In this document: positions 4,151 through 23,156 of the stretch, piece by piece
Numbering within the stretch: the first letter of the stretch is position 1
Layout: each line of letters opens with the position of its first letter
Assembly (NCBI GenBank): GCA_020161435.1
Contig: JAIUNV010000002.1
Span: forward strand, 310,001 to 374,000
Length of the DNA stretch: 64,000 bases
Direction of reading: 5' to 3'
From: Bacteroidota bacterium
GTDB taxonomy: Bacteria > Bacteroidota > Bacteroidia > Chitinophagales > Chitinophagaceae
Program-made: the position numbers and the translations under genes
The notes under the pieces: generated by a model
Databases searched by the model: none
The model's input: only the letters and a program-made list of their open reading frames with translations
What the model was told of the DNA's origin: nothing

Positions 4151-4855
4151 TTAACGCAAGCCTTTAATTACGTCATCCAACGGAACGAGGATGTATTTTT
4201 CAATTTCGATACGGGCAATTTCACGGTTGCGTTGGGTATTGATTTTCTTCGTCATTTCCTCGTTGTACTTTTTCAATGCATCATTGTACGCATCTTCAGT
4301 AGCAGCACCGTTTTCAAAGTCGCTTTCTACTTTTAAAAAGTTGAGGTATTCGGCAGAAGTCGATTTGGTTTGTACATCCAACAGTGCTGAATACATCAAA
4401 AAATCTTCATAGTTTTTCAGGATGATGGCCTTGATTTCGCCATAGGTTTTTGAACGTTCCGCATGTGCAATGGCTACATTTTGCTCGGCCACCCGAATGT
4501 CTTTTGCCCGTGTAAACATCACACCCAGCGGCAATTGCAAACCGATATTGTACCGCGGAAAAAGGTTGGCCTGATTTTGTGTTGGCTGACTTCCTTTGAT
4601 AGAAAATTCATTGAGGTTACCCGTCACAATCAGCTGGTTCATGATGGTGCGTTTGGAACGCTGCAATTGTTGCTGTGCGATGATTTCATTGCGGTCGGCA
4701 ATTTCCATATCGGGGCCGGGCAGTGCCAGTTCTATCAATCGCTGACGGATGTCTTTGATAGTAGAATCAGGTCTCATTTGGGGTGATTGTGCAACAGCCG
4801 CTACACTGCTCAGCAACAATGCAATCATCAGGCAGCTATACTTTCCGGGTTTCAT
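4151..4855 (-). CDS. Secreted TolC-like (outer membrane efflux family) half protein
   Basis: A 234-residue protein with an N-terminal signal peptide (hydrophobic core LMIALLLSSVAAVAQ). The rest is mainly helical and charged, with a short beta-type stretch (YNIGLQLPLGV) and long helices rich in E, K and A. The order of helices, a strand such as IGLQLPLGV and then long coiled helices resembles one half of a TolC/OEP protomer, which normally has about 400-480 residues. Only one repeat is present, so it is probably not a classical trimeric efflux duct. It lies between the O-antigen ligase and an acyltransferase, so a role in polymer export or periplasmic organisation is possible. The function is not known to me. 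Confidence 0.55.
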   Translation of the reverse strand: MKPGKYSCLMIALLLSSVAAVAQSPQMRPDSTIKDIRQRLIELALPGPDMEIADRNEIIAQQQLQRSKRTIMNQLIVTGNLNEFSIKGSQPTQNQANLFPRYNIGLQLPLGVMFTRAKDIRVAEQNVAIAHAERSKTYGEIKAIILKNYEDFLMYSALLDVQTKSTSAEYLNFLKVESDFENGAATEDAYNDALKKYNEEMTKKINTQRNREIARIEIEKYILVPLDDVIKGLR

Positions 4856-4893: not shown

Positions 4894-6354
4894 TTACTGT
4901 TCTTCTTCCTCCCAGGCAATGTTGGGGTCATCAAACTGTTTGAGTCGTCCAATGACGGCCATCAGCGCAAAGAAAAATAAGATGCCGGGCATTTGGCCAA
5001 TGGCTATTTGTCCGTAGTGGGCTACAATTTGCGCAAACAATGCCGCCGCCATGGCGCAGTACAATGCTTTGATGGTAGGATTTCTTGACCGGTAATAATG
5101 ATGCACACATTGTTGCATCATCACAAAGTACAACAGGCACAAAATAACCAGGCCTATCCAGCCAGCTTCCAAGGCAAATTTGAGGTAGCCGCTGTCGGTA
5201 GGAAAGCCAGCCAGTTCATGCCCGGGATTGTATCGTTCGCCTTCTACCCCATTCGTAGCCAATCCGCCACCCATGGGATGCGACAGCATGTATGGCCGAA
5301 TTAATTCTCTGTTTTCATCCCGCACTTTCAGCGATGCATCGTTGGTGCCATTCATGAGGGTACGAACCCGGTTGATGGCGGCATTATTGACTGGCCCAAA
5401 TAAGATAAACGCCAATGCCAACAATGAAACCCCGGTAAAAATGAGTGTTCGTTTCTGCTGAAAATTCATGAGGATGTAAATAGCGACACCAATTGCAAAA
5501 ACGATGTACGATGTACGGGTGCCAGAATACACGGCGCCTAAAACCATGGCCACACATGCAAAGTACAACCAGCGTTTGTATGCTGCAAAAGGTTTGAACT
5601 GTGATAATACCAATGCAATAACGGCAGTATAACCCAACAAAATACCACTGGCAGCAGGGTCGCTTAAAAATGACATTTTACGGAACATGCCACCCTGATA
5701 ATAGAGTTTCACTTTGTGCGGATCACTCATGAGCCAACGGGTTTCGAAACCAAAAAAATCGAACCACTGCTGTTTGCAGGCATAGAGCCCAGCCAGCACA
5801 CACATGATGAGCCAGAACTTAAAAAAGCGAACAATTTTGGGCAAATCGTCGAGCAACAAATAAGCGATGTAATAAATAAGCAGAAAGGCGAGTACTTTCC
5901 GATAATAGAAAATAAGCCCGGACATGCTGCGCATATTGGGATTGAAAAACTCAACGAGTAAATACGCAGTGTAGATGATGAGCATGATGCTTACCGGCTG
6001 CCGTACAAAACCATCTATCTTTTGCTGCTGCACTTTTTTGCGTAGCAAAGCACTCATGAGTACCAGTACCGTTAATAATTCGGCGCCAATACCCACTGGT
6101 AAATCTGTTCCCAATACACGCCCCGGCATAAACATGATGAACGTGTAGGCAAATAGCGCATAAAAACCAAAGTAAGGATTGCCCAATACAGCCAATACGA
6201 AACCAATACCCAATGGCGCTGCTGCTACAGCCATTGCCAGCACCAGTTGGTTGGATGCCACCAGAAAAGCCACCACAGCTGTAATGGCAATTAAAACTGC
6301 TTTACCGATGAGGGTATCAATCCATGCTTTGTATGTATTTGATGCCAGTCTCAT
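4894..6354 (-). CDS. O-antigen ligase / Wzy-like polymerase family protein
   Basis: A 486-residue protein with about 11-12 transmembrane helices and one large periplasmic loop. That loop contains GHELAGFPTDSGYLKFALEAG, where His-x(n)-Asp-Ser-Gly-Tyr is characteristic of the Wzy_C/O-antigen ligase domain. A conserved arginine segment (SGTRTSY) precedes it. Proteins of this family either polymerise undecaprenyl-linked repeat units or ligate a polymer to an acceptor. In a locus with an initiating sugar transferase, a flippase and a Wzc-like protein, a polymerase role is the simpler reading. It begins 3 bp after a 34-residue membrane peptide gene. Polymerase versus ligase cannot be separated by sequence alone. 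Confidence 0.8.
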   Translation of the reverse strand: MRLASNTYKAWIDTLIGKAVLIAITAVVAFLVASNQLVLAMAVAAAPLGIGFVLAVLGNPYFGFYALFAYTFIMFMPGRVLGTDLPVGIGAELLTVLVLMSALLRKKVQQQKIDGFVRQPVSIMLIIYTAYLLVEFFNPNMRSMSGLIFYYRKVLAFLLIYYIAYLLLDDLPKIVRFFKFWLIMCVLAGLYACKQQWFDFFGFETRWLMSDPHKVKLYYQGGMFRKMSFLSDPAASGILLGYTAVIALVLSQFKPFAAYKRWLYFACVAMVLGAVYSGTRTSYIVFAIGVAIYILMNFQQKRTLIFTGVSLLALAFILFGPVNNAAINRVRTLMNGTNDASLKVRDENRELIRPYMLSHPMGGGLATNGVEGERYNPGHELAGFPTDSGYLKFALEAGWIGLVILCLLYFVMMQQCVHHYYRSRNPTIKALYCAMAAALFAQIVAHYGQIAIGQMPGILFFFALMAVIGRLKQFDDPNIAWEEEEQ

Positions 6355-6471: not shown

Positions 6472-7671
6472 TTAAATTCCTGCTTTTTGCATCGCATTAA
6501 ACATAGCAGCAATGGAAGCAGCCCATGTATGCGACAAAGCAAAGGCTTTTCGATTTGCTTGCATGGCGGCATCACCCGGCTGTTGTAAATATGCGTTGAT
6601 TGCCGCTGCAAAATCTTCTTGGCTTTCCGCTGTTTTTACATAGGGTTCAAACATTTCCATAGCTACAGTTTTGGTGGCTACAATATCTTTTCCCAATGCC
6701 AGATACTCATCTATTTTTCTGGGATAATTGCCAATAGTGAGTTCATTAAGCACCTGTGGATTGATACACACATCAAAATGCTGTATATAGGCATACAAGG
6801 ATGCAGCAGGCTTAGTACCCAAGAAATGCACGTTCGGCAATTGATGCAGTATGCTGTTGCGAAATGCCTCATCTTCCGGCCCCACCAATACCAACGATGC
6901 CTTTACATGTTGAGCTACATGCTCCAGCAATTCTATCCCCAACCTTGATTGTATCAATGCGCCTGTATAGCCAATGATTGGCTTAGCAATGCCGGCCAAA
7001 TCTTCCGGACAAGGCAATGATTCAGTCTGCAAGCCACTAAAATCACAACCCTGACCAATATCGTAGCTATGCTGATTGTTTTGCTTGCCGTAATCGGACA
7101 AATACTTTGAATTGGCTACTACACAATTGGCTTTGGCCATGAGAGCAGGTTCCAGTCTTTTACCATGCTTACTGAAATACGGCTGTGCATTCAGATAATC
7201 ACGGATATAGTAAATCGTGGCTTTCACCGGCAGCAATTCATGAAGGTATTGTCCTCGAAAAAAATCATTATCGATGAGTAAGTACGGTTGCTGAAAATGT
7301 AGCTGCTGCATTCCTTTTTCAATATCTGCAGCAAGGCGCTGGTTGTTTCGTTTATTGAACCAGTCAAACAAACCTGCATGTCCAATCCAGTTGATGGATT
7401 CAAGAATAACAGTTGGTGTCAATACAAACAGGTTGGGTTGTACTTCCTCAATCAACAGGCTTCCAGATGCACGAACTTTTTTCCGTTGAATAATCTTTGC
7501 ATCCTTTCGCTGGCGAATAGCAGAAATACGATCGAGTGCCCGGTTGATGTACAACACCGGGTACTGCTTCGACAATTCCTCCGCCATGTTTTTGAAATTG
7601 CTGCCAATTTCAATATCCCAAGGCTGCAGGCCCATCATTACAAAGCTGGTATGTTGGTTGGTTGTACTCAT
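6472..7671 (-). CDS. GT-B fold glycosyltransferase (group 1 / TuaH-like)
   Basis: A 399-residue soluble glycosyltransferase. The C-terminal half has the nucleotide-sugar binding pattern of GT-B enzymes: IIGYTGALI, then LVLVGPEDEAF, and KIDEYLALGKDIVATKT where a conserved acidic residue binds the sugar donor. The N-terminal half carries DIEIGSNFKNMAEELS and NDFFRGQY. The ATG at 7671 overlaps the stop of the flippase gene in an ATGA arrangement, which suggests translational coupling. A TTG three codons upstream is a poorer start. It probably adds one sugar to the lipid-linked repeat unit at the cytoplasmic face. Donor and linkage are unknown. Confidence 0.8.
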   Translation of the reverse strand: MSTTNQHTSFVMMGLQPWDIEIGSNFKNMAEELSKQYPVLYINRALDRISAIRQRKDAKIIQRKKVRASGSLLIEEVQPNLFVLTPTVILESINWIGHAGLFDWFNKRNNQRLAADIEKGMQQLHFQQPYLLIDNDFFRGQYLHELLPVKATIYYIRDYLNAQPYFSKHGKRLEPALMAKANCVVANSKYLSDYGKQNNQHSYDIGQGCDFSGLQTESLPCPEDLAGIAKPIIGYTGALIQSRLGIELLEHVAQHVKASLVLVGPEDEAFRNSILHQLPNVHFLGTKPAASLYAYIQHFDVCINPQVLNELTIGNYPRKIDEYLALGKDIVATKTVAMEMFEPYVKTAESQEDFAAAINAYLQQPGDAAMQANRKAFALSHTWAASIAAMFNAMQKAGI

Positions 7672-9017
7672 TTTGCCCAAGCCAGTTTAGTTTTTGCAAT
7701 GCCCAACAAATATTGGTATGCATATATCATTTGCATGAATATCCGAGGTATTGATACATCAAACAAACGACGCATGATTAGCTGATTGATGATAAACACA
7801 AATGTATGAGCCGTTAGCACACCATAAGCAGCGCCTTTCAATCCAACGGAGCTGATGAACAAGTAACAGGCAATCACACTCACGGTCATCAGCACCATCA
7901 TCATGGTCATATTGATGTGTGGCTTTCCTGTTGAATCGAGCAGCGTACCAAACTGCCGCAAAAAAGGCATGAAAAAACTCACACATACACAAAGCTGCAA
8001 CAACTGCGTATAGCTGGTGTATTTTTCGCCGCCAATGAGGTATAAGAAAATTCCGGGCACTGCAATCACACACAATGCAGCAGGAATAACAATGGCCAGC
8101 CCAATGCCAACAGCACGTTCATACAAAGCACCTACTTCATTGTTTCCACCACCGGCATGCAGTGCTGCAGATTTGGGGAACAACACATCGGCCAATACCT
8201 GCGAAGGAATGTCGATAATATTGGTAAGCCTGGCACAAATACTTAATGGAGCAACCATCGCCGAAGAAATCAGCATAGAAGTCATGAAGTGGTCGGTGGT
8301 TCTGAACACAGAAGACGCAGCATTTGTACCCACAACATATTTACTGTAGTGTACAAACTTACTCACCCAAGCGGCATCCCAATGCCAGCGAAACCGGAAC
8401 ACACTATTGTGCTTCCACAGAATAAATATTGCCGATGCAAAGATGCCGGCGTTGTATGCCCAAACCAGTGCAGAGCCCGACATATCTAACCATCCGAAAG
8501 CCAGTAAAACAACGATGCTCAACGCCACTACCTGACGGATGAACAATGCATGAAATACCGGTTTGAAATTGGGATATACAGCCATGCGCCATTCAAAATA
8601 GGTGCTTACTCCTATGAGTATATTTCCGGGAATAAACCACAGCAACATTTCATTGAGGCCGGCTGCATGCAGCGGGGCTTCGATATTGAATAATGCCAGC
8701 AGCACCAATGCCACACTGGAGAGGCTTGTGATAAAAACATTGAGCCACATGGCGGCTGAATAAACGGCATCTTTTTCATCGGCTTTTGCTACATGGTAAA
8801 AGCGAATAAGGGCATTACGCACCATGCTTTGCCTGATGATTTCTATAATAGAACTGATGAGTAAAAATTGCGCCCATGTACCCAAAGAAGATTCGGTGAG
8901 TACTCTGGTAAGAATAACCGTACTGGCAATACCGAACACCAATGTACTGGCCTTAATGAGGGCGCTGTACAATCCTGCTTTGAGTGTAGAGCTGGCGGTA
9001 TGTGTATTGCTTGCCAT
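7668..9017 (-). CDS. Wzx-type oligosaccharide flippase (MATE/MVF superfamily)
   Basis: A 449-residue protein with 12 or so hydrophobic helices spread along its length and few soluble loops. The N-terminal helix contains TLVFGIASTVILTRVLTES, a segment common at the start of polysaccharide transporters of the Wzx/RfbX type. It would move undecaprenyl-diphosphate-linked repeat units across the inner membrane, for polymerisation by the O-antigen ligase-like protein encoded downstream. It starts 3 bp after the stop of the upstream acyltransferase and ends overlapping the next glycosyltransferase start, so it is firmly inside the operon. Confidence 0.85.
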   Translation of the reverse strand: MASNTHTASSTLKAGLYSALIKASTLVFGIASTVILTRVLTESSLGTWAQFLLISSIIEIIRQSMVRNALIRFYHVAKADEKDAVYSAAMWLNVFITSLSSVALVLLALFNIEAPLHAAGLNEMLLWFIPGNILIGVSTYFEWRMAVYPNFKPVFHALFIRQVVALSIVVLLAFGWLDMSGSALVWAYNAGIFASAIFILWKHNSVFRFRWHWDAAWVSKFVHYSKYVVGTNAASSVFRTTDHFMTSMLISSAMVAPLSICARLTNIIDIPSQVLADVLFPKSAALHAGGGNNEVGALYERAVGIGLAIVIPAALCVIAVPGIFLYLIGGEKYTSYTQLLQLCVCVSFFMPFLRQFGTLLDSTGKPHINMTMMMVLMTVSVIACYLFISSVGLKGAAYGVLTAHTFVFIINQLIMRRLFDVSIPRIFMQMIYAYQYLLGIAKTKLAWAK

Positions 9018-9020
9018 GAA

Positions 9021-10109
9021 TTATTGTGTCACCAATGTTGGAGCAGGTTTCTTTTCAAAGGACCATTGAAAAATCCATTGCCAGTTTTTCTTTTGTGCAA
9101 TGCTGGCCACCAACATGGGTATGAGCATGCCCAAAGCAATGCATATGAACAATAACACTGGCACGTAAGTATAGCCGATGAATTTACTGAAAACGGTGCG
9201 CACCAGCGATGCTACCAGCACATGCATTACATAAATCTGCAGGCTATACCTGCCAATGGCTGCGAAAATTTTGCCGACAGCTGTACCATTGAGTTGCATA
9301 CTTAGCATGAGCATAAACAGGCCGCCAATCTCTGCAATGAAGAAATACAATGCCGGTTGGTAATACTCAATATGGTTGGCGCTACCATGACTATTATTAA
9401 TCATCAAAAATTGATAATTAGCATATAGAAATAACGGCAGCAACAGCAATAATACCCAAGTCTTCTTTACCCATACTTCTACTGCAGGCCTAAAAATGTA
9501 TTGAGCAATCCAGCTACCCAAGGCCATAAAAATGTAGTAGTGTAAAATATCATACACAAATCCGGTTTCGATATGATACACCGTAATGGCACCAGAAGCA
9601 GCGTACAAAATAATACCCAACAATACATGTTGCCATGCTTGTAATTTGAACCAATGCGACAGCAACGCAAACAGCATTGATACATTGAACAAAGCATACA
9701 AATACCAAAACTGATCGATACGACGGGGCCTGACAATCAAATCGAAATAACTAATCCAATTACGGTCTGCATTGGTGTATTTCGACATGATGAATTGCAA
9801 TGTGATTTGCAAACAACCCCAGAGCAAAAAAGGATAGAGTATGGTACCTGTCTTATTCAACGCAAACCAACCAAAGCCTCTTTTAGCTAAGCTGGAGGCT
9901 ACAAAAATACCCGAGATCATAAAAAACAAAGGCATGCGAAAACTGAAGAACATAATGTTGGCATCTTCAAGCATGGGAAATGATTCGGTACCAAGATTTG
10001 CTCTCGACAGTCCCTCAAACACATGCCGGTATACCACCAGAATAATGGCAACACCTTTTGCAACATCTATCCACCCGTAGCGGTTCGTTTTTTGTTGAAG
10101 CGACTGCAT
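9021..10109 (-). CDS. Acyltransferase family membrane protein (second copy type)
   Basis: A 362-residue polytopic protein beginning GWIDVAKGVAIILVVYRHV, the Acyl_transf_3 signature with the arginine-histidine pair in helix 1. Roughly ten hydrophobic helices follow, with FRMPLFFMISGIF as the second conserved block. The family transfers acetyl, succinyl or similar groups to sugars. It is clearly different from the 389-residue acyltransferase at the end of the operon, so the polymer may carry two kinds of acyl substituent. It starts 5 bp after the Wzc-like gene stop and ends 3 bp before the flippase start. Confidence 0.82.
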   Translation of the reverse strand: MQSLQQKTNRYGWIDVAKGVAIILVVYRHVFEGLSRANLGTESFPMLEDANIMFFSFRMPLFFMISGIFVASSLAKRGFGWFALNKTGTILYPFLLWGCLQITLQFIMSKYTNADRNWISYFDLIVRPRRIDQFWYLYALFNVSMLFALLSHWFKLQAWQHVLLGIILYAASGAITVYHIETGFVYDILHYYIFMALGSWIAQYIFRPAVEVWVKKTWVLLLLLPLFLYANYQFLMINNSHGSANHIEYYQPALYFFIAEIGGLFMLMLSMQLNGTAVGKIFAAIGRYSLQIYVMHVLVASLVRTVFSKFIGYTYVPVLLFICIALGMLIPMLVASIAQKKNWQWIFQWSFEKKPAPTLVTQ

Positions 10110-10114
10110 GCGGC

Positions 10115-12283
10115 TTACATTTCTAACACGTCCATTTCCACTTTATTCAATACAGCGCCCAGGTAGTTTTTGCCATACTGCTGCACTCGCTGCATACTTT
10201 CAATAGCAGCAATATTCAACACATTGTTTGCTGCATGAATCGTTGCCACAGCTTCAGAGCTGGCAAGTACTTCCAGTCCGTCTACATGATATTTCAACGC
10301 AGCCACTTCAATCAATACGCAATCAAAATCTGGGTTTGATTTAGCAACTTCCAAAATCTGAGCAATGGTATCAGCAAGGCCGACGGGTGTTGCGGCGGAA
10401 GCTGCTATACCTAGTATGGATATACCTGGTACAGCAGAGTCTGTTATATGTTTTTTCAATGTAGCAGTAGAAACTGTAGTACCCAGTAATGGAGACAATC
10501 CATCAGTACCACTCAATTGTTCTGTAAGTGATGCAGAAACATAGTTGCCGTCAATCACCAATACTTTCTTACCTGCCTGCGCCATGCTTTTTGCAAGGGC
10601 AACGATTGCAACGGTTTTACCCTCCCCTCTTTCATAACTGGCCATTACAAGCGAATGCACTTTTTGCGATTGCAATTCAATACGCAACTGTTGTATGCCG
10701 TTAATGAACAATACTTTTTCAGTAGCTTTTTTCTCATTCACCGGCTCATCGAGCAATGCCATTAAGGATTGCTTTTTTAAGGGTATCAAACTCAAATTTA
10801 CCAGTGGCTTAAAACCAGCCACTTTTGCAAATTGAGATGGCGATTTGATCGAGTTATCAAAAAATGCGGACAATAGAATAATGAAGCTGATTAGGAAGAA
10901 CGTTACGATACCAGCCAAACCTGTTGTCAAAATGGTACGAGAAGATTCAGGTTTCAACGCAGGCTGCCCCATCAGTGTCTGACGGAAGTTCAATCCTCCA
11001 TCCTGCTTGTACCCTTGTACTGCCTCAAAGCGTTGTTTGAGATCGGCAAATTCTTTCGATGCAATATCAGCCTTGGCCTGTTCACGGGATACATCCACAT
11101 CTTTACCTGCTAATGAAGAAGCCTGAGCCTGATACTTGCGTATCATGCTTTCATATTCTGCAATATTTCCTTTTGCGGATGCAATGTCTGCCTCAAGTTC
11201 ATATTTGCGTTGCTGAAGTGTTTTACGCAAATCTTCATCCGGTCTTTCCACGTTATTACTTCTGCCTTTTTCAATCAGGTCTTGTTGCAGTTTTTTAATC
11301 CGTTGCAACAATGCCTGGTCATTGCCGCCTTTCGCATTGTTCTCTGCCTCGAGTGTACTTATTTGCTTACGAATTGCAACAATTTCGCTGTTGTTTCCAC
11401 CACCACTCACCGGCGGCGGCATTCTTTGCAGCTGTCCTGTTACCGATTGCAACTGCGCCATATTCCGGTTGTAGTTTCCTTTCTCATCAGCCAGTTTGGT
11501 TTCATAATCTTGCACTATACTCAATGCCGCCGAAACCGCTGCAGAAATATCTGCGGTACCCAAGCCAACTTTTGTAGATTGTAGTTTACTGAAAGTACTG
11601 TCGAACTCCTTAGCCTTTTGTTGCAGCTGCCGGTTGATTGATTCCATAGATTCGTTGGAGCGTACATTGGACAACGAATTGTAAAATCGCATAAATTCAG
11701 GACCAATGGCATTTACCACTGTAGCAGATAAAATCGGATTTTCTGACCGGTAAATGATATCAATATAATCGGTACGGGCCAATCGGTTGATGCTCAGTGT
11801 GCTCACGAAGCTTTCATAATCGTACCCATATATTTCGAGCATTTCAATCAGCTTATTTTCATCTGCATTGGCAGTTGAAAGCAAGCGAACGGAGTCAATT
11901 TTATTTTTCAGAATCTGAACGGCCTTTTCTTTGGCTATACCAAGGGCACCTACTTCTGCCTTCTCTTTTTCCGTCAAAACTTTAAATGGTTTGTCGGCAG
12001 TAAGGTCATGTTGCAGAATACGGTAAGTCATCATCCCAATTACATTGGGCGATTTAAAGGTTTCCAACACGTTGTTGAATTTTACGTCTATTTCAAAAAC
12101 GTTGAAGTCTTCCTGCAAAGCTTTCGATTGCATGGTAAGACCAGTAGAATATTGAGCACTAGAGAGATAGCTTTTCTTTTTTAAGAAGGCGTAAGAAAAA
12201 CCAATTGCGGCTGCAAGTATGGTGAGTAAGAGTACCAGCCACTTTCTTTTAGCAAGTGCCTGATAAAAAAAGATCAAATCCAT
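10115..12283 (-). CDS. Wzc/GumC-like polysaccharide co-polymerase with degenerate kinase domain
   Basis: The start chosen is the ATG at 12283 (MDLIFFYQALAKRKW), giving 722 residues; 22 upstream in-frame codons have no membrane-protein sense. TM1 lies at about residues 15-35, a long helical coiled-coil region follows, and TM2 is near 454-478. The cytoplasmic domain has a Walker A motif ERGEGKT (about 550) as in bacterial tyrosine autokinases. The usual Walker A' 'DxDxR' is replaced by VLVIDGNYV, and the C-terminus (YLGAVLNKVEMDVLEM) has no tyrosine cluster. It should therefore control chain length and export, but kinase activity and autophosphorylation are doubtful. It heads a tightly packed group of EPS genes. 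Confidence 0.85.
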   Translation of the reverse strand: MDLIFFYQALAKRKWLVLLLTILAAAIGFSYAFLKKKSYLSSAQYSTGLTMQSKALQEDFNVFEIDVKFNNVLETFKSPNVIGMMTYRILQHDLTADKPFKVLTEKEKAEVGALGIAKEKAVQILKNKIDSVRLLSTANADENKLIEMLEIYGYDYESFVSTLSINRLARTDYIDIIYRSENPILSATVVNAIGPEFMRFYNSLSNVRSNESMESINRQLQQKAKEFDSTFSKLQSTKVGLGTADISAAVSAALSIVQDYETKLADEKGNYNRNMAQLQSVTGQLQRMPPPVSGGGNNSEIVAIRKQISTLEAENNAKGGNDQALLQRIKKLQQDLIEKGRSNNVERPDEDLRKTLQQRKYELEADIASAKGNIAEYESMIRKYQAQASSLAGKDVDVSREQAKADIASKEFADLKQRFEAVQGYKQDGGLNFRQTLMGQPALKPESSRTILTTGLAGIVTFFLISFIILLSAFFDNSIKSPSQFAKVAGFKPLVNLSLIPLKKQSLMALLDEPVNEKKATEKVLFINGIQQLRIELQSQKVHSLVMASYERGEGKTVAIVALAKSMAQAGKKVLVIDGNYVSASLTEQLSGTDGLSPLLGTTVSTATLKKHITDSAVPGISILGIAASAATPVGLADTIAQILEVAKSNPDFDCVLIEVAALKYHVDGLEVLASSEAVATIHAANNVLNIAAIESMQRVQQYGKNYLGAVLNKVEMDVLEM

Positions 12284-12363
12284 GGTGGTTGGAATTTGGG
12301 TATCGGTGGTTAAGTAGAGGTATATACAGGCGGCTAAGCCACCCTTCACAGTGCATGCAATGT

Positions 12364-12555: not shown

Positions 12556-15500
12556 TTATTCTATCTTCAATAACTTAATTGACTTGGTCACTTTGCCATC
12601 AACAATTACCCGTGCCATGTACATGCCTGGCTTGAGGCCCAAGCCTGAAACATTCATATTTACGGTATTGCCGGCAGCCATATTTGCTTTGCGGTCAGCT
12701 ATTACCATGCCGTTGGCATTGAGGAGCTGAATCTGATAGCCCTTCGCTTTTTCCAAACCAGACAGCTTGAAAGTAATTTCATTGCGGAACGGATTCGGAT
12801 AAGCAGCTACGGTTGTATTTGTAGCAACTTCAGGAGCATTCACATTCACCTTGCGGGCCTCAGTAGCGGTTTCCACTTTACCAGGTTTCTGCTGGGCCAC
12901 AGGCGGCACCATCATTACTGGCTTAGCAGGTGCTGCGGGTGCAGCTGCTGCAGAGTAACCCTGAATGATTAATCCACTCAGGAAGCCAAACTGTGCCAGG
13001 CTGTTTGTAGAAACCTCGAGATAAATTTCTCCATCGTTGGTAGGAGTAATTTCATCGATATACTCAGCACGTGAAGTGTTCTTAGAAGCATTGAGGAACC
13101 TGACACGACCATTTACGGTGTAGCTTGTAGTGAGGTTATAGTTCCAGTCGGCACTGGCGAAGAAGCCAAGGCGATACTTGAGTGACTGGTTCAAACCATC
13201 AATACGGATGAGTACTTTCTGGCCATTATCAATCCAGTAGCTACTAATCAATACTGGGTCTGGGAAAATGCCGCTGTTATTACCCGTATTCATACCAGCC
13301 CAGAATTCACCGTTGAAACTTGACACCAGATTTACGGCTACACCAGAAATGTTACCCAAATCATTGTTGAGGTTTTCATAGCGATCACCTACTTGTGGTA
13401 TCACCCTTGTATTGTTCCAAGGAGCCGGAGCAGGATACTGGTTGGTAAGGTGCAGGTAAACAATATTGCTTGGTGTAATTACTGAAGCAGCATTGCTAAA
13501 CTCTGTACCACCACCACTTACGGTAGCCCTAACTACATAGAAGTAACGAGTACTTGCAGATGCAGTGTTGTCGGTATACTTGGTGGTGTTAGCAGGCAAT
13601 GTAGCAATAAGTGCATAAGAACCGCCAGCTGTTGCTCTCCAAAGTTCATACCCTGTTTCGTTATTAGCTCTGTCTGACCAATGGAGCGATACAGAAGTAC
13701 GGGTTTCCGGAGTTGCCTTCAACGCTACAGGAGCCAATGTACCAACAGTTCCATCGTAAGATTCAATCACCAGACCATTCAGATAGCTGTATAAAGCTGT
13801 GCTGTTTTTGGTAATGGTCACAAATATTTCACCGTTTGCATCAGGTACTAAACCATTCAGGCGGGTGGTAGTATCGTTGTTGTAACGAGCCTGCATTTGA
13901 ACTGATTGTGTACCACTTGTGATGGTTGCAGATGCATCGAAACCAGCATTTACACTACCCAAGAAGGCGATATTGTACAACTTGCCAGGGGTAAGACCAG
14001 AGAACTTCACCTGCTTGCTATTGGTACTGCTTTCGTAAATAGCACTGCGGATTACTTCATCTCCAAAGGCACCGGAGTTTTCGGTAGTGATATGACCCAG
14101 ATCTGTTGTGCCAGTCCATTGTTGAACCAGAGAGAAATCGACTGTAGTCAAAGCGCCATTTTCATCACGCATGTTCTGGATGTTTTTGTTACCCATTGGA
14201 TAACCCAACAAATTGTTCCATGGTGTTGCTGCAGGCATATTATCACTTCCAAAGTTGAGGAAGATGGCTGTTGTATTCTTATCAGATACACTGATTGAAA
14301 CTGTTCTTGTTACACTTGCACCTTTATCATCAGCTACAGTTATAACGATGCCGTTATAAACACCGATATTGTCTACTGTTGGTGTAGCAGCAATGTGGTA
14401 AGAACCACCGCCGTTGTTTACCAATGTAGCAAACGCTGGCAGGTTGCTGGCCGTTACTGTCAATACATCTTCAGCATCATCAACGGCTGTAAATGGCAAG
14501 GTAGCAAGAGCATCAGTTTTTACATACAAGGTACCACCGCCGGTAATGACAGGCAGTTTATTACCAGTTGTTACTGATACAGTTGGCGTGTATGCAGAAC
14601 TACCGTTACTACCTACAGAACGAATCTGATAATAATACGTAGTGCTGCTGCTAACTGTCAAATCATCGTACGAAGTGGTATTCAAATTGGCCGCACCAGG
14701 ATTGAGCAATACAAAGTTTGCATTCGGCTCCAATGAACGGTAAATCTCATACCCTGTTTCGTTGTAAGCTACATCTCTCCAAGTAAGCTTTACACCACCT
14801 GCAGGCAACAATGCTGCTGCAAAACCCTTAGGCATTGCTGGTGCAGAACCGTCATCAAATGCTGATTCAATTTCAAGAGCATTGATGTATCCAGCCGGTG
14901 TACCAGCAGCTTTGCCCATGCTAAAGGTTACAATACCTGAAGCATCTGGCTGCACATTATCAATAGAAACTTTGTTCTGGTTATTGTTCTGTACATATTG
15001 GCTCACCGTTTGGCTACCAATAGTAAATGTAGTGGTACCATTATCAGGAGTACCAGTCCACTTACTACCTGCATAGAAACTGAACTTGTATTTCTTGGCT
15101 GGGTTCAAACCAGTTGTACGAACATTTATGGTATTTGGTGCACCAAAAATGCCGAAGTAATAGTAATCTCTGATTACTGCATCGGGATACAGCCCACTGT
15201 TATTGCCAGTTACCGGTCCTTGATCGAAGGTATTCCAGGCAGTAGTTTGGAAAGAAAGACCAACTGTTGTAGAAGCACCGGTAGTGTTTTTAAGCGCATT
15301 GGTATTTAAACCAATCACATTGTTCCATGGACTTGGTGCTACAGAAGCTTTTTGAATACTTACCAAAATGCGTTCGTTTGGAACAACCTCAGTTACTGTA
15401 AAAGATACGGGTTTTGTATCGATAGCACCGTTTGCATCGGCAACCTGTACAGTGAAGTTGTAGGTGTCACCATCAGCGTAGCCGGGTGCAACATTCAACT

Positions 15501-18500
15501 GAGCCGTACCATTACCATTATCTGTAAGAGTTACAAATGAAGGCAAACCTGTAGCTGAAATGATGAGACCAGTTTGACCATCAAGGTCAGTTGCTGAAAT
15601 GTTGAAACTACCAACTGAACCTTCCGCTACAGAACTTACTACTACAGGGTTCAATGTAGGCGGATTGTTTGCATCTACCAAAAGGGTAAAACTTCCGGTA
15701 CTTACTCCGCCATAGTTATCAGTAACTGCGTACTCAATAGTATAAGTACCCATATCACCAATTTGTGGTGATAATGAAATGCCTGCACTACCGTTGCCAT
15801 TATCTGTAATAGTTGCAAATGATGGAAGGTTTACGCCTGTTATGGTTAAGGCATCACTGTTCGGGTCTGTTGCGCTGATACTAATATTTCTTATCGTACC
15901 AAACTTCATGGTAGTATTGGCAATTGCTGTAATTACTGGTACATCATTTCCAGTTTTCGCAGAATCCTCATTACTATCACCTGCATTTCCACCTACGCCG
16001 GTTGCAACAACCTTATAGTAGTAAATAGCATTCGAAAACAGAGACGCATCGTTAAACGTAATGGTACTTCCTGTACCTGCAGCACCTGCTACAGCAGCAA
16101 TTTTGCGGTAAGTAGTATTGTTAGACAATGAACGATAAACGTCATAGCCAGTTTCATTGGTGCCATTATCAGTCCAGGTTACATCTACAGTATTACTTCC
16201 TGTAGCAGTAGCCAGCAAGTTGGTAGCAGCAGCAGGTACGGCAGGAAGAATCTGTGTAATTACATCTGAAGACTGATAGCCGTCATTCATAAGCTGTGCA
16301 ATTTCTGCGGCACTCAGGTTCGCATCAATTACCCGGAGGTCATCCATGCGGCCGCGATAGTAAGCAGAAGCATTTGCACGGAAAGCATTTCCGCTATTGT
16401 GATAACCAAGACGAGAGTTATTGGTAGTAGCAGCCACTGAGCTAAACGATAGATTAGTATTTTCAGCGGCAAGTACACCATTAACGTACATACGCAGTGT
16501 GTTACCTGCATATACCATAGCTACGTGAGACCAAGCATTGGCAGCAGTGAAGCTTGTAGAAACGGACACAGAAGTATTCGCATTAACCACAGCAGCTTGC
16601 AACTGATTAGCATTGATACGCATAGCTACACCGTTATCCGAACCACCAAAATCAAACAGCAAACGGGTACCTGTAAGCAATTCCGGACGAATCCAGAGGC
16701 TTACTGTTCTTGCATTGAAAGCTGACTTCAAGAAGTTATTAGGTCCGCTAACTTCTACCAAATCATTTGTTCCATCAAACAATATTGAATGCGTACCCTC
16801 CTGGGCAGTTGTGTTGTAAGCAGCACCATTTGTAAGTGTAATCGTATTCGCCCCCCCAGTAGCATCGGCATTGTTATTGTTCATTCTCCAACGTGCTTCT
16901 GCATAGCTAAATGCAAATGCAGATTCGCCATACTGACCAATAGCTCTTACTTTATAGAAGTAACGGGTATTGGCTGACAAACCAATAGAGTCGGTGAAAG
17001 TGGTAGTATTAGCTCCAATGGTACCAACAGTAATAAACTGGCCAGTTTTAGAAGTGCTTCTAACCACTTCGAAACCAGTTTCATTATTACTCATATCCAT
17101 CCAGTTTACCTGAACTCTATTGTGAGCCAAAGCATTTGCTCTTACACTTGCAGGGGCAATCGGAGCAACGCCAGCAAAAGGAACAGATTCATCGAATGCA
17201 GTACTTGGAATTTGCTGCCTTGCAATACCAGCAGCTGTACTTTGCCACCATACCTGCATTGATTGTCCACCACTACCCTGGAAGTAACTTATTGCAATGG
17301 GATGTAACCCTGCTGTAAGAGTGATAGTACCTGTGCGACACTGGTTGCCGTGGGCACCATCGTTATTAACTAATGCCGTGGCTGTATGGCTATATGTGCC
17401 AATATAGAGTTTGCTACCATCATCGGAGCAAGTTTCAAAAGTGTAACTACCAGCAACTGGCACTTTAATGGTACCCTCCCAAAGGAAGGCATAGTTGTTT
17501 GTCTGATTTCTCAGGGTAATATCTACGTTAGCTGACCTGCCAGTTTGCACTGGTGTAAGTGTTGCAAAATTGGGAAGTACAGTCCAGGTGCCATTGTACA
17601 ATTTGTATGATAAACCTGATGCTGCGGCCTGACCCGTAATTTGGCTACTCAAAGGAGACAGGTTGCCAGCTGCATCTCGTGCCCGAACCTGGAAGTTGTA
17701 GGTCTGGAAACCATTCAGATTGGGTACTGTAAAGTAGTTTGAGCTGGTTGTGTAAGATTTCAGTCCGTCAACAAAGATGTCGTACTTGTCTACACCTACA
17801 TCATCAGTAGATTCATTCCACTGAAGTGAGATAGAGTTTTGATTTGATGTAGTGATTACTAAGTTCTGAGGTGCATTGGGTGCACTGTCGTCCACCTGTG
17901 TTTTGCCTGTAGCTTCTGCACTATTTGCAGATGCACCATTTGCATTTACAGCACGAACGATATAATAGTAGTTGGTATTTGGATTCAAGCCCTGATCGAG
18001 GAAAGAAACCTGATCAGCAGCAGTTTTGCCAATCAGTGTGTATGGTCCCCCGGCAGTTGTACTTCTGTACACTTCAAATCCGGTTTCATTATTTACCGGT
18101 GTTGGATTATCGCTCCAATCTACCTGCATGGTTGTTTTAGAAGCTCCAAGTGCTAATAGGCCGCCTGCAGCATCAGGCAATCCGGAAACACCGTTTGCAT
18201 TTACTACAGTATAATCTGCTGAATACTCTGAAGAACAACCGTACAATTCTGTTACCCTCAACCTGTAAGTTCCTGCAGGAGCTTCAAATACTTTTGCAGT
18301 TGATACAATAGCATTATCAGACACCCTACGCCATTCGTAACCAGTATAATCTCCGGCTACAGAAAGTGGTACAGTTGTTTTACCATCAGATGCAGGCAGC
18401 ACATTGCTAAACATGCCTTGAATTTGAATTGGCGGGGTAAGTGTAGTTGGCTTAATACGCACGACTACAGGAGTAGGCGACCATGCAGACCAGTTGCCAG

Positions 18501-19533
18501 TTGCAGTGCGCCTAAACCTTGCACGATAAGTGCCATAAGTGGTTACTACCAATTTATTGGTAGTAGCACCAGGTATTACCACACCATCTTTCTCCCATTC
18601 ATAAGCAGCAAATCCTGCTGTCAATCCAAGTGTAGTATTAACAGGATCTCCGGGGCAAAATTCGCTTCTTCCAAAATATACAATAGGGTTTGCTTTGTGA
18701 ATGTTATTCATGAAAGGAACCCAGGCAGACTCTGCCCATGCGGTATTCCAACACCCGTGACCTTGGGTTGGATAACGGGTATGCACAATACTACCTCCCC
18801 TGTTTTTAAAAGAGTCAACCAATGCCACAGCCGTACCAGGTGCAGGGTTATTATCCTTATCACCTGTATACAATCGAATAGGAATTTCGAGGTACTTAGG
18901 GATACCAGGAATATAACCTAACGATGCACCACTAATAGGCTGAGCACCAGCAAATACTTTAGGGTACTCTTCAATAAACTTCCAGGCACCCTGGCCTCCA
19001 ATAGAAAGTCCATGAACCATTACGCGGTCCACATCCACTTTCACATACTTAGCCATTGAATCAACAATCTTGGCCAAGGTGGCAAAATGCGAAGAACCCC
19101 AGCCAGAGTTGTTAGCTCCAAACTGTGGGTAAATCAAAAAGCCATCGTAAGTGCCATTATTTACACGGTCTCTAAAAGTCTGACCACCATGGAGCAGCTG
19201 ATATTCGTTATCAAATGCAGAACCACGTTCGCCCAAGCCATGCAAAAAAACTGTTGCAGGATAAACCTTACCATCAGATACATTGTGCTGATAGGTTTTG
19301 GGGAACATAACCCGGAACTGAACACCCTGGAAGATGTAGCTCTTAAACTGAGATGCATCCCAGTTTACACGAGGAGTACGAACCCATTTTGTAATTCTAC
19401 TCAACGTGGGATTGGGAGGTGGACTTGCGGCATTGTAATTTACAATAGGGTCATTGGGATCAAATACACCAGCCTGACCAAATGTAACCGTGCAAGAAGC
19501 AAGGATTGTGAGGAAGAGGATTAAGCGTTTCAC
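12556..19533 (-). CDS. Giant multidomain T9SS-secreted esterase/adhesin (2325 aa)
   Basis: The protein starts at a GTG (MKRLILFLTILASC..FGQ, a signal peptide). Residues about 70-280 form an alpha/beta hydrolase: FLHGLGERGSAF, nucleophile Ser177 in GLSIGG, probable Asp225 in TGDKD and His259 in QGHG. It is likely a secreted esterase or depolymerase. Then come two Ig-like domains (282-447), FN3 domains (about 451-540 and 550-635), PA14 (638-781), FN3 (795-880), LamG (881-1089), FN3 (1098-1181) and two cadherin-like domains (1196-1379). Next are three copies of an unassigned module of about 170 residues (1386-1557, 1753-1925, 2021-2192), alternating with FN3 and cadherin-like domains. A Pro/Ala linker and a T9SS sorting domain (YPNPFRNEITFKL...) end it. 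Its place among EPS genes suggests that it binds or trims the polymer on the cell surface. Confidence 0.85.
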   Translation of the reverse strand: MKRLILFLTILASCTVTFGQAGVFDPNDPIVNYNAASPPPNPTLSRITKWVRTPRVNWDASQFKSYIFQGVQFRVMFPKTYQHNVSDGKVYPATVFLHGLGERGSAFDNEYQLLHGGQTFRDRVNNGTYDGFLIYPQFGANNSGWGSSHFATLAKIVDSMAKYVKVDVDRVMVHGLSIGGQGAWKFIEEYPKVFAGAQPISGASLGYIPGIPKYLEIPIRLYTGDKDNNPAPGTAVALVDSFKNRGGSIVHTRYPTQGHGCWNTAWAESAWVPFMNNIHKANPIVYFGRSEFCPGDPVNTTLGLTAGFAAYEWEKDGVVIPGATTNKLVVTTYGTYRARFRRTATGNWSAWSPTPVVVRIKPTTLTPPIQIQGMFSNVLPASDGKTTVPLSVAGDYTGYEWRRVSDNAIVSTAKVFEAPAGTYRLRVTELYGCSSEYSADYTVVNANGVSGLPDAAGGLLALGASKTTMQVDWSDNPTPVNNETGFEVYRSTTAGGPYTLIGKTAADQVSFLDQGLNPNTNYYYIVRAVNANGASANSAEATGKTQVDDSAPNAPQNLVITTSNQNSISLQWNESTDDVGVDKYDIFVDGLKSYTTSSNYFTVPNLNGFQTYNFQVRARDAAGNLSPLSSQITGQAAASGLSYKLYNGTWTVLPNFATLTPVQTGRSANVDITLRNQTNNYAFLWEGTIKVPVAGSYTFETCSDDGSKLYIGTYSHTATALVNNDGAHGNQCRTGTITLTAGLHPIAISYFQGSGGQSMQVWWQSTAAGIARQQIPSTAFDESVPFAGVAPIAPASVRANALAHNRVQVNWMDMSNNETGFEVVRSTSKTGQFITVGTIGANTTTFTDSIGLSANTRYFYKVRAIGQYGESAFAFSYAEARWRMNNNNADATGGANTITLTNGAAYNTTAQEGTHSILFDGTNDLVEVSGPNNFLKSAFNARTVSLWIRPELLTGTRLLFDFGGSDNGVAMRINANQLQAAVVNANTSVSVSTSFTAANAWSHVAMVYAGNTLRMYVNGVLAAENTNLSFSSVAATTNNSRLGYHNSGNAFRANASAYYRGRMDDLRVIDANLSAAEIAQLMNDGYQSSDVITQILPAVPAAATNLLATATGSNTVDVTWTDNGTNETGYDVYRSLSNNTTYRKIAAVAGAAGTGSTITFNDASLFSNAIYYYKVVATGVGGNAGDSNEDSAKTGNDVPVITAIANTTMKFGTIRNISISATDPNSDALTITGVNLPSFATITDNGNGSAGISLSPQIGDMGTYTIEYAVTDNYGGVSTGSFTLLVDANNPPTLNPVVVSSVAEGSVGSFNISATDLDGQTGLIISATGLPSFVTLTDNGNGTAQLNVAPGYADGDTYNFTVQVADANGAIDTKPVSFTVTEVVPNERILVSIQKASVAPSPWNNVIGLNTNALKNTTGASTTVGLSFQTTAWNTFDQGPVTGNNSGLYPDAVIRDYYYFGIFGAPNTINVRTTGLNPAKKYKFSFYAGSKWTGTPDNGTTTFTIGSQTVSQYVQNNNQNKVSIDNVQPDASGIVTFSMGKAAGTPAGYINALEIESAFDDGSAPAMPKGFAAALLPAGGVKLTWRDVAYNETGYEIYRSLEPNANFVLLNPGAANLNTTSYDDLTVSSSTTYYYQIRSVGSNGSSAYTPTVSVTTGNKLPVITGGGTLYVKTDALATLPFTAVDDAEDVLTVTASNLPAFATLVNNGGGSYHIAATPTVDNIGVYNGIVITVADDKGASVTRTVSISVSDKNTTAIFLNFGSDNMPAATPWNNLLGYPMGNKNIQNMRDENGALTTVDFSLVQQWTGTTDLGHITTENSGAFGDEVIRSAIYESSTNSKQVKFSGLTPGKLYNIAFLGSVNAGFDASATITSGTQSVQMQARYNNDTTTRLNGLVPDANGEIFVTITKNSTALYSYLNGLVIESYDGTVGTLAPVALKATPETRTSVSLHWSDRANNETGYELWRATAGGSYALIATLPANTTKYTDNTASASTRYFYVVRATVSGGGTEFSNAASVITPSNIVYLHLTNQYPAPAPWNNTRVIPQVGDRYENLNNDLGNISGVAVNLVSSFNGEFWAGMNTGNNSGIFPDPVLISSYWIDNGQKVLIRIDGLNQSLKYRLGFFASADWNYNLTTSYTVNGRVRFLNASKNTSRAEYIDEITPTNDGEIYLEVSTNSLAQFGFLSGLIIQGYSAAAAPAAPAKPVMMVPPVAQQKPGKVETATEARKVNVNAPEVATNTTVAAYPNPFRNEITFKLSGLEKAKGYQIQLLNANGMVIADRKANMAAGNTVNMNVSGLGLKPGMYMARVIVDGKVTKSIKLLKIE

Positions 19534-19604: not shown

Positions 19605-20792
19605 TTACACATTTGCATCTTGAAACATCGCTGAAGGGGTTTTGGCCATGATGCGTAAGTCGTAGAAAAAACCGAAATTTCTGGAATATTCAATATCAAG
19701 ATCTACACGTTCATTCACAGACATATTTGCTTTTCCACGCTTGCTGATCTGCCATAAACCTGTAATACCAGCAGGGGCCAAAAATCTTTCAGCCCATTCA
19801 TTGCAAGTAAGCGTAGCGGCTTCATAGAGCGGCAAGGGACGATTACCAACCAAAGACATATCTCCCTTCAATACGTTCAATAATTGAGGCAGTTCATCTA
19901 AACTGGTTTTACGCAAAAAACAACCCAATCGGGTAACTCTGGGGTCGTTGTCAATTTTAAAAAATTTGGGGCCTTCACAATTGTCTGCATCACCAGCATA
20001 CTGATTGAGCTTTGCATACTCATCCAGTTTCTGATCTGCGTCTACCACCATGGTTCTGAACTTGTAAAAATTGAACACATCAAATCCACGACCAGCCCTT
20101 TTCGAAATGTAAAAAATCGGGCCCCGTGATTCGCAAAAAATGCATAATGCAATCAAAAGCATTAAGGGCATAAGAACCAACAGGGCAACAGAAGAAACAA
20201 CAATATCTAAAGCTCTTTTAAGCACCAAATCAACATCAAGCTTGTTTTGCGATTTGTGCAATTCTGCAACAGGCGCAGCAGGAACACGCAAGCCAGCTTT
20301 CATCTCCTTCATGCTGCGCAAAATTTCTGCACCAGCCATTAAAGTTTGCGCATTTTCATTTTGACTAATGACATCATCAAACAAACGGCACTTTACCATC
20401 TCGTACAGTTCATCCTTGGTAAACACACCTTCGCCTACGTAGTGATAAACGAAGGGAATTTTGCGCAGTTCCTTTGTTGCTTCCAGAAAAGCATAAAACT
20501 GGCGGAGCTCTGCAAAACGTATCCGGCCCTCATACACGATGATCTTCGGGAGTTTTACACCGGCATGTACCATCTCCAAAAGCATGTTTTTCGATTCTGA
20601 AAGAGAGTGCATCACTTTCGATTCCGGAACTATACTCCAATCATCAGAATGAAGTAAGTAACCAGGTAAGCTAATGATGAGTGCATCTAACCCACGAACT
20701 GTTTCAGAAACATGAAATGACCGATTGCCAATTGCTTTGAATTGTACCACTGGTGATACCAGCAAATTGGAATGAATGTTGTGTGTAATCAT
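19605..20792 (-). CDS. Initiating sugar transferase (WcaJ/WbaP-type) with receiver-like N-terminus
   Basis: The chosen start is the ATG at 20792 (395 residues); a GTG 17 codons upstream is possible but preceded by no better signal. The C-terminal half is a bacterial sugar transferase: a hydrophobic helix (DIVVSSVALLVLMPLMLLIA), the KFRTM motif, and DELPQLLNVLKGDMSLVGNR. It transfers a sugar-1-phosphate to undecaprenyl phosphate and starts repeat-unit synthesis. Most relatives carry extra membrane spans or none; here residues 1-170 are soluble. They resemble a response-regulator receiver fold (LDALIISLPG, then KIPFVYHY, then LFDDVIS) without a clear phospho-acceptor. It lies 128 bp after a stand-alone receiver protein, so regulation by signalling is plausible. 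Confidence 0.85.
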   Translation of the reverse strand: MITHNIHSNLLVSPVVQFKAIGNRSFHVSETVRGLDALIISLPGYLLHSDDWSIVPESKVMHSLSESKNMLLEMVHAGVKLPKIIVYEGRIRFAELRQFYAFLEATKELRKIPFVYHYVGEGVFTKDELYEMVKCRLFDDVISQNENAQTLMAGAEILRSMKEMKAGLRVPAAPVAELHKSQNKLDVDLVLKRALDIVVSSVALLVLMPLMLLIALCIFCESRGPIFYISKRAGRGFDVFNFYKFRTMVVDADQKLDEYAKLNQYAGDADNCEGPKFFKIDNDPRVTRLGCFLRKTSLDELPQLLNVLKGDMSLVGNRPLPLYEAATLTCNEWAERFLAPAGITGLWQISKRGKANMSVNERVDLDIEYSRNFGFFYDLRIMAKTPSAMFQDANV

Positions 20793-20920
20793 ACGTTTAG
20801 GGTTTGTTGGAGAAAGAAGAGGGTATTGATGAGTCGTTTGCACACTGAGCTTTTTTTTACTGAAGCGCAGTGCAGGTGTGTTAAGTCTTAGAGATGTTTA
20901 TGTCAAGGATTCATTTGTTT

Positions 20921-21309: not shown

Positions 21310-22506
21310 TTAAGCGGAGAGTTTAGTTCGGGCAGATCGTTCCCAAACAGCTGACTGATTATTCTGCAAAAACTTTTTCAATCCGAAATAAACAGCCACG
21401 TTCATAAACAAGAAATAGTAGGGTACGTTTAGTATTCTATAACTGATATTCAATCGATTGAAAATCCCACCGGCAATGGCTAAAGAATAAAAAGCCACTT
21501 GAGCAATTAATAACAATTGGATAGGTAATGATGGGCTTAATAAAACAAGTAACAAATTACTCAGCAATATAACCGGCAACAAAAAAGGACACAATGCCCA
21601 ACGCAAAACCCTGTGAGAAACATATTGAAAACTGAGCATTCCAAAACGCAATGGATTCATAAGTGAAGCAAAAATTTGCATGGCTTGAAAACCGCCAGCT
21701 GCTATTCTGATTTTTCGCTTCTCTTCTTCCTTTACATTTTGCGAAGGCAATTCCTCTCCGTAAGCAGTAGGTTCGTACTTTACCAAATACCCACGTTCAC
21801 ATACGCCCAACGAAATATAGAAATCATCCAAAATAATGTTGTTGCCTACAGCCTCGTAAAGGCTTTTCCGCACTGAAAAAAGCTCACCAGCAGCACCCAC
21901 TACAGTGTGCAAATCAGAGTCGAGCTTTTTCAAGAATGATTCATACTTCCAATACAAACCTTCTTCAGCCACAGCACCAACACCAATGGCGGAAACAATA
22001 CGTTTTTCGCCACTCACACCGCCCACTTTAGGATTGGAGTAATGTTTGGCAATGTTCGCAACTGCATCTTTGTTGAGCATCGTATTCGCATCACTAAAAA
22101 TCAAAATTTCATTTGATGCATGGGCTACAGCACGATTCAATGCAGCTGTTTTACCCATTCTTGCTGGCTGATGCATGAGCTTGACCCGAGGTTCGAAACC
22201 CGAAACAATTGCAGGTGTAGCGTCATCAGAACCATCAGTAATTACTATGATTTCTAATTGTTCAGCTGGATATTGTTGCGATAGCGAATTTTCGATTTTG
22301 GCCTGAATGCAATCAGCCTCGTTGTAAGCTGCAATAATCAATGAAACGCTTGGCTGGAAAGGCTTTTCAGATAACTTATTGGCCTCAGTTTTGCCAAAAA
22401 ATTGCTTTGCCCTTACGAGTAGGTATGTAATAACACCGTAACCGAAGTAGGTGTATATCACAATAGCCAGGCTAGACCAAAGAAGTATGTGAAGAAGTGT
22501 GTTCAT
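21310..22506 (-). CDS. Membrane-bound GT2 glycosyltransferase
   Basis: A 398-residue protein with an N-terminal membrane helix and about three C-terminal hydrophobic helices (from about residue 290). The catalytic domain carries SVSLIIAAYNEADCI, IIVITDGSDDAT and IFSDANTML, the A-type acidic motifs of GT2, plus ILDDFYISLGVCERG. It resembles processive EPS synthases but has KRKIR where those have QxxRW, so it may add a single sugar. ATG 22506 is chosen because the ten codons upstream look non-coding and contain the ACCCTTAAAC motif. It is the first gene of the minus-strand EPS arm, next to the 650-bp control region. Confidence 0.8.
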   Translation of the reverse strand: MNTLLHILLWSSLAIVIYTYFGYGVITYLLVRAKQFFGKTEANKLSEKPFQPSVSLIIAAYNEADCIQAKIENSLSQQYPAEQLEIIVITDGSDDATPAIVSGFEPRVKLMHQPARMGKTAALNRAVAHASNEILIFSDANTMLNKDAVANIAKHYSNPKVGGVSGEKRIVSAIGVGAVAEEGLYWKYESFLKKLDSDLHTVVGAAGELFSVRKSLYEAVGNNIILDDFYISLGVCERGYLVKYEPTAYGEELPSQNVKEEEKRKIRIAAGGFQAMQIFASLMNPLRFGMLSFQYVSHRVLRWALCPFLLPVILLSNLLLVLLSPSLPIQLLLIAQVAFYSLAIAGGIFNRLNISYRILNVPYYFLFMNVAVYFGLKKFLQNNQSAVWERSARTKLSA

Positions 22507-23156
22507 GCGTTTAAGGGTTGCTTGCGTGGGCCACACCAGGGAAACTATTACCAGTCAGCTCATCAGCAGTAGAAGTGACAACAATAGTCACATCCACTTA
22601 CGGATGGATGGCAACGTTGGAAACCAGCATTGTGATGTCATGAGTTAAGGGTAGACAACACAATAATTTAACTTGAGTTTTAACTACAAGTAATACTGGA
22701 TAAAAAGGTAATAGAAAACCGGGTTTGGGAGAATTTTGTTGTTTAAGGGTGTTGGTTTAGGTTTTTTCTTTCGTTTAGGGGGTTTGTGATAAACATAGAA
22801 GTTTAACCACAGTTCGAAAGTACATGCAATTTGATAAAAAGCAAATTTTTTTTTGGGTTTCTCTACCAAAGTGGCAAATGAGTATACGAACCAGTCGAAA
22901 TTCATTTTACGTAGCCTTTCATTCCATATTGATAACTAGGATTTTATATAAAAACTGAATGCATCATTTATTTTTTCTACTATTTTAGCGTGCCGACTTT
23001 GTTTTACCCTTAAACCCCTTTTTACAAGTCCGTACAGGACAACCTTTGCATTTTTCTATCATAATGCATCAAAATAATTGTTCAACCTTTAATTATTGTT
23101 AGCTTCGATTTCATACCCAATAGCCGGAAACGCTTATTCATTTATCCTATCTGCTT
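22507..23156. promoter_or_regulatory. Divergent EPS control region without genes
   Basis: This stretch separates the two divergently transcribed EPS arms. It is AT-rich, with a poly-T run near 22850, and contains no convincing gene. The word ACCCTTAA(AC) occurs repeatedly: on the minus strand at 22509-22518, 22645-22652 and 22741-22750, and on the plus strand at 23006-23015. A variant (ACCCTAAAC) sits at 20795-20803 directly before the sugar transferase start. The first copy lies immediately before the GT2 start codon. The repeats may be regulator sites or a leader element. No exact promoter could be fixed. Confidence 0.5.

Follow-up and report, generated by a model that had tools for sequence, protein, structure and literature searches.

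The 64,000-nucleotide stretch of Chitinophagaceae DNA analysed here (the window) carries the gene for a giant protein in which a putative secreted esterase, three modules of a predicted malectin-like fold and a T9SS tail are combined, and in many relatives this gene recurs beside genes for making and acylating a polysaccharide. The repeat, the fold, the triad, the T9SS tail and the gene pairing are all supported computationally, and the recurrent setting in loci for acylated polysaccharides is a more interesting result than the fold of the module. The giant protein probably trims or holds the sugar coat of its own cell rather than taking part in the digestion of food. The fuller reading, a T9SS-exported surface esterase that removes or adjusts ester groups on the acylated polysaccharide of its own cell, with the polymer held meanwhile by the three modules, is in our estimate about evenly poised.

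The gene, an open reading frame for 2325 aa, lies at 12556..19533 on the minus strand, and all domain coordinates below are on that strand. Its product has an N-terminus that resembles a signal peptide by eye, and an alpha/beta-hydrolase (esterase) domain at residues 41-290 (18664..19413) that is supported by phmmer, profile, conservation and a structural model. Pfam and NCBIfam describe a hydrolase-like N-terminus, FN3 domains, a PA14 domain (residues 677-766, 17236..17505; PF07691, 44.4 bits against a cut-off of 24), a laminin-G-like (Laminin_G_3) domain (residues 920-1079, 16297..16776; PF13385, 82.3 bits against 27.6), cadherin-like/Ig domains (PF17892, the best of three cadherin-like stretches being residues 1196-1286, 15676..15948) and a T9SS sorting tail. 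The tail is a type A C-terminal sorting domain (residues 2245-2317, 12583..12801) that exceeds the cut-offs of both PF18962 (30.8 bits, cut-off 27) and TIGR04183 (31.5, cut-off 23), and by the latter the protein classes as T9SS cargo. In the best 5 of 16 matches, phage records aligned to the giant protein only in its FN3/PA14-like parts, each covering 6% of the query. No description of the module or of the giant protein was found in the open-licence literature, which is not proof of absence, and the one annotated relative met here, in a Flammeovirgaceae plasmid record, is named solely by its PA14 part.

The original prediction placed a repeated module at residues 1386-1557 (copy 1, 14863..15378), 1753-1925 (copy 2, 13759..14277) and 2021-2192 (copy 3, 12958..13473), and our results bear this out. 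The three copies match each other in pairwise BLASTP at 25% identity (E 4e-17), 26% (E 8e-21) and 33% (E 1e-20), and these real pairs score 60-71 bits, compared with a maximum of 28.1 bits when 300 shuffles of each copy were searched with all three. A module profile of 114 rows, made up of the three window copies and 111 copies from loci within L005-L078, found the same three stretches strongly (E 1e-52 to 1e-59), with the next-best match in the giant protein, inside the C-terminal tail region, at E 2e-4. The alternation of the modules with FN3 and cadherin-like/Ig domains was likewise seen with Pfam. The shared core that had been described holds overall, but copy 2 reads TTENSG and GD where the core was given G-x-NSG and PD, and copies 1 and 3 follow the C-terminal Y-L-x-G-L-x-I-E only approximately. 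Conservation across copies that are about 30% identical is centred on PWNN, TGNNSG.YPD and individual Y and N residues.

The module had also been said to be unrecognised, and the profile searches agree, as no Pfam family claims the three copies and the 114 copies have no consistent match in Pfam or NCBIfam. Pfam and NCBIfam searches of the whole giant protein assigned nothing to the three modules, and when the 114 copies were scanned singly, the commonest family was GH36C (13 of 114, best E 0.007). FN3 and GH36C were rejected as the identity of the module, the matches being weak, below cut-offs and limited to a short stretch. A search of PDB sequences with the module profile gave fibronectin-type fragments only (best E 0.18). 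The malectin families (PF11721/PF12819) are absent from the whole-protein Pfam listing at E 1 and from the 25 most-hit of the 55 families met by the 114 copies, and no protein in 61 genomes of the phylum matched PF12819 above its cut-off. By hhalign, the module reached a probability of 0.7% (E 0.078) against 21 Chitinophagaceae members of PF11721 and of 0.2% against the AGA-YXIM_GBD family PF21254, the latter a small alignment of 7 members, and the F5/8C control showed no link either (0.3%).

Structure gave a clearer picture of the module. AlphaFold modelled copy 2, with the 114-row alignment, as a beta-sandwich at very high confidence (pLDDT 97.5, pTM 0.92), and the nearest solved structures are malectin-like. 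In the VIA comparison, where Z differences under 1 are ties, the best of the 993 PDB chains aligned was the malectin-like domain of ANXUR2 (Z 12.6, 150 aligned, 2.8 A, 15% identity), together with the YxiM N-terminal domain (Z 12.4, 138 aligned), residues 716-886 of the Bacteroides uniformis beta-glucuronidase (Z 12.3) and FERONIA (Z 12.2). Human malectin gave Z 9.8, and many carbohydrate-binding modules (among them CBM36, 35, 4 and 61) stand in lower rows at Z 8-9. Foldseek alone returned low TM-scores, about 0.4 in the top rows, and the VIA comparison was needed for the fold matches. The earlier guess of a malectin-like beta-sandwich thus stands for the fold, on a confident model and malectin-like top matches, but not for a profile link to Pfam Malectin, which hhalign put at the 0.7% given above. 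On the strength of the model, the fold of the module is very probably malectin-like. We regard the module as a malectin-like (galactose-binding-type jelly-roll) beta-sandwich family that is not covered by Pfam or NCBIfam, and it merits its own domain family.

The module family is also found outside this genome. Matches were found in 39 of 147 genomes of the window's family (E 1e-4), 6 of 198 across the class (E 1e-6) and 10 of 296 across the phylum (E 1e-15); G080, the only further member of the genus among the family's genomes, has no module copy. A scan of a genome collection by two motif patterns gave 117 confirmed stretches, the best 80 of which, in 75 loci, were kept, and for both these reasons the locus sample leans to close relatives. 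The 113 module-bearing ORFs, many of the shorter ones cut by locus ends, have three matches in 80 cases, two in 29, one in 3 and five in 1. Chitinophagaceae and Cytophagales relatives mostly have three copies at the same spacing, and 66 ORFs in loci L004-L078 have three full copies. When 99 copies from 33 of these 66 ORFs were placed in a tree, it showed 4 changes of position label, compared with a mean of 47.1 after shuffling; copy 3 forms one clade (support 95/96), and copies 1 and 2 are imperfectly clustered (4 and 3 changes, with some long branches). Because the copies separate by position in the tree, the triplication is taken to be old.

Several further occurrences of the module were met. 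Five loci (L012, L022, L038, L050 and L064) each have two module-bearing frames, apparently tandem duplicates. The source genome holds two divergent relatives of the module (L153 and L154; C5:227798-228292 and 230672-231175) that are 81% identical to each other, in a frame of 1833 residues with PKD repeats, an alpha/beta-hydrolase and a GDSL esterase domain in the stretch read, so that the module family is found again on an esterase protein. A remoter relative (L155; C2:304228-304719), about 5.3 kb before the start of the window, lies in a protein with PKD repeats and a T9SS tail. Two loci are titled Beijerinckiaceae (L069) and Thalassovita (L035) yet are of Bacteroidota type, and these are probably mis-binned contigs.

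In our judgement, it is fairly probable that the modules bind glycan. Sugar binding does not follow from a malectin-like fold, since the plant ANXUR domains show no detected binding: the excerpted text of PMC6038381 reports that no binding of diverse oligosaccharides was detected for ANXUR1, a close relative of the top match ANXUR2, and that ANXUR domains have not kept the canonical sugar surfaces. This would suit modules that serve as structural spacers or protein-protein contacts, lifting the esterase off the surface with no sugar bound, as would their alternation with FN3 and cadherin-like spacers. However, the W, PWNN, NNSG and PD positions are conserved in copies that are only about 30% identical, and the three positions have been kept over a long history, which is more than a spacer needs; we consider the spacer reading unlikely.

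The catalytic domain was found in all 69 proteins longer than 1500 aa, a set that excludes shorter ORFs and comprises the window's own protein and 68 others from loci L004-L078. The L004 protein is the window's or nearly so, with a 100% identical module, and so almost duplicates it in this count. The putative triad residues S177 (19003-19005), D227 (18853-18855) and H259 (18757-18759) are 100% conserved in the alignment. The nearest solved structure is PDB 3doh (phmmer E 3.7e-16; profile E 3.7e-33), and the model of the domain (pLDDT 92.7) aligns to it by VIA with Z 26.5 at 26% identity. An alpha/beta-hydrolase fold with Ser-Asp-His makes the domain a predicted CE1/EstA-type enzyme, and the matches of the esterase profile include CE1 enzymes. 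Feruloyl and acetylxylan esterases both match the model at Z of about 19-20, so that these matches do not point to one natural ester. A reading as PHB depolymerase was rejected, with 27 bits for TIGR01840 against a cut-off of 107.85.

The giant gene belongs to a Wzx/Wzy-type exopolysaccharide or capsule locus, all of whose genes named here are on the minus strand. Directly upstream lies an initiating bacterial sugar transferase (19605..20843; PF02397, 201 bits), and on the same side are a family 2 glycosyltransferase (21310..22536; PF00535) and further glycosyltransferases. Directly downstream comes a Wzc-type chain-length/kinase gene (10115..12349; Pfam Wzz, CbiA), then a membrane O-acyltransferase of the AT3 type (9021..10109; PF01757), a Wzx-type flippase (7668..9017; PF13440/PF01943), a group 1 glycosyltransferase (6472..7680; PF13692), a Wzy/O-antigen-ligase-type polymerase (4894..6354; PF04932), an OEP family protein (4151..4855; PF02321) and a second AT3 acyltransferase (2965..4134; PF01757). 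The initiating sugar transferase, Wzx, Wzy and Wzc thus occur together by Pfam, as in a Wzx/Wzy-dependent locus, and this recurs in relatives. At the edge of the locus, a plus-strand frame at 1329-2984 encodes a 551-residue protein that matches no Pfam family (threshold E 0.001), and a homologue of it lies downstream of the giant gene in L012.

Among the relatives, 46 of the 75 loci hold at least two homologues of nine such polysaccharide genes. In 39 of the 68 loci whose flank is 2 kb or longer, the giant gene is followed on its own strand by a Wzc homologue, at a median gap of 95 bases, and none was found there in the other 29; the source genome has a single match to the window's Wzc. An AT3 gene follows on that strand, no more than 4.5 kb downstream, in 46 of the 66 loci whose flank is 4 kb or longer, as judged by a profile from 11 AT3 proteins, 9 of them from the same loci, with Pfam confirming those 11 and not every further match. 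The pairing persists after thinning by esterase identity, at 11 of 15 loci (<50%) and 19 of 27 (<60%). Only 7 AT3 genes occur in the 4.19 Mb of the source genome, two belonging to the polysaccharide cluster, and by our own arithmetic an AT3 gene would therefore fall by chance within 4.5 kb on one strand in well under 1% of cases. AT3 is directly upstream of the giant gene in three loci (L016, L023, L070), about 6 kb downstream in three (L045, L053, L069) and on the opposite strand in four (L064, L071, L075, L078); in 10 of the 66, no AT3 match was found in the fetched flank (L006, L014, L021, L028, L030, L054, L055, L057, L065, L066).

In loci that lack Wzc, the gene beyond the downstream end of the giant gene was identified with Pfam, and AT3 was found in 9 of 14 (L007, L012, L025, L035, L048, L060, L067, L068, L072), a count of one gene per locus that leaves out a second, more distant gene in L048 and four upstream genes that were scanned. 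The other five have a GMC oxidoreductase (L016), an HGSNAT-type acetyltransferase (L065), a histidine kinase (L028, where the giant gene is near this kinase and a glutamate synthase), a glycosyltransferase (L075) and a PA14-FN3-hydrolase protein (L061). The last, L061:9226-12720, is open at the locus end and is a possible paralogue. In the Flammeovirgaceae plasmid record, a PA14 protein that matches the module is directly followed by an annotated acyltransferase. Directly upstream of the giant gene in L057 lies a gene for PorP/SprF, a T9SS membrane protein (L057:73-1608).

This setting bears on whether the giant protein is instead a digestive enzyme, with modules that bind plant or fungal polysaccharide from the environment and an esterase that frees this of feruloyl or acetyl groups. 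Many Chitinophagaceae degrade plant matter, and the resemblance to feruloyl and acetylxylan esterases and the CE1 matches noted above would fit such an enzyme. However, the gene stands with Wzc, Wzx, Wzy and AT3 in a locus for biosynthesis and not for degradation, and there is no glycoside hydrolase or SusC/D-like gene among the neighbours scanned, and we hold a digestive role to be improbable. Less probable still is a main role as surface adhesin or gliding-type filament, with only regulation shared with the polysaccharide genes. The T9SS tail, PA14, LamG, FN3 and cadherin-like repeats do resemble surface adhesins and L057 has its PorP/SprF gene, but the invariance of the esterase triad in all 69 long proteins suggests that catalysis is under selection.

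We return to the reading of a surface esterase that acts on the coat of its own cell. AT3 enzymes are described in the excerpted text of PMC9558356 as acylating surface glycans, exopolysaccharides included. With the gene adjoining an O-acyltransferase and a polysaccharide export set, the polymer of that set is the simplest target for the esterase; that this is the actual target is, in our judgement, an even call. The membrane AT3 protein would esterify the polysaccharide repeat with acyl groups, probably acetyl, and the acylated polymer would be exported. The giant protein would leave the cell through its T9SS tail, its three modules, and perhaps also PA14 and LamG, would hold the polymer, and the esterase would remove or adjust ester groups, thereby tuning or tethering the coat. 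We infer the ligand to be the cell's own polysaccharide, and likewise infer the substrate, the type of ester and the direction of the reaction. Exopolysaccharide retention and remodelling at the surface of soil Bacteroidota is poorly known, and a giant T9SS esterase conserved in a synthesis locus would connect the export of the polymer with its decoration by esters and its retention at the surface. More tentatively, and with the balance somewhat against it, the protein may be the first member of a class of systems that tailor surface polysaccharides, in which three copies of an uncatalogued malectin-like module, fixed on a T9SS-displayed esterase, are paired with AT3 so that the same cell esterifies its own polymer during export and edits it outside while holding it on the surface.

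Compared with known systems, the modules share by model comparison the beta-sandwich fold of the malectin and malectin-like domains (PF11721, PF12819; CAZy family CBM57), but are marked by PWNN and TGNNSG.YPD where malectin has NCGG and D..G..W. The fold is also common to the AGA-YXIM galactose-binding domain (PF21254; PDB 2o14), with no link found by hhalign. In 3doh, a Thermotoga maritima esterase, and in the CE1-type esterases, the likeness is to the N-terminal catalytic domain of the giant proteins; unlike these, the matched chain of 3doh shows no sign of a T9SS tail or of the module triplet, and the polysaccharide-locus setting is, as far as tested, specific to the giant proteins. There is also a parallel in gene organisation to the AT3 surface-glycan systems as described in the excerpted text of PMC9558356, where a membrane acyltransferase gene likewise adjoins one for a hydrolase-fold protein acting on acyl groups, but the partners named there are SGNH proteins (PatB, ape3-like) or IcaB, whereas here the partner is a T9SS surface protein of 2300 residues.
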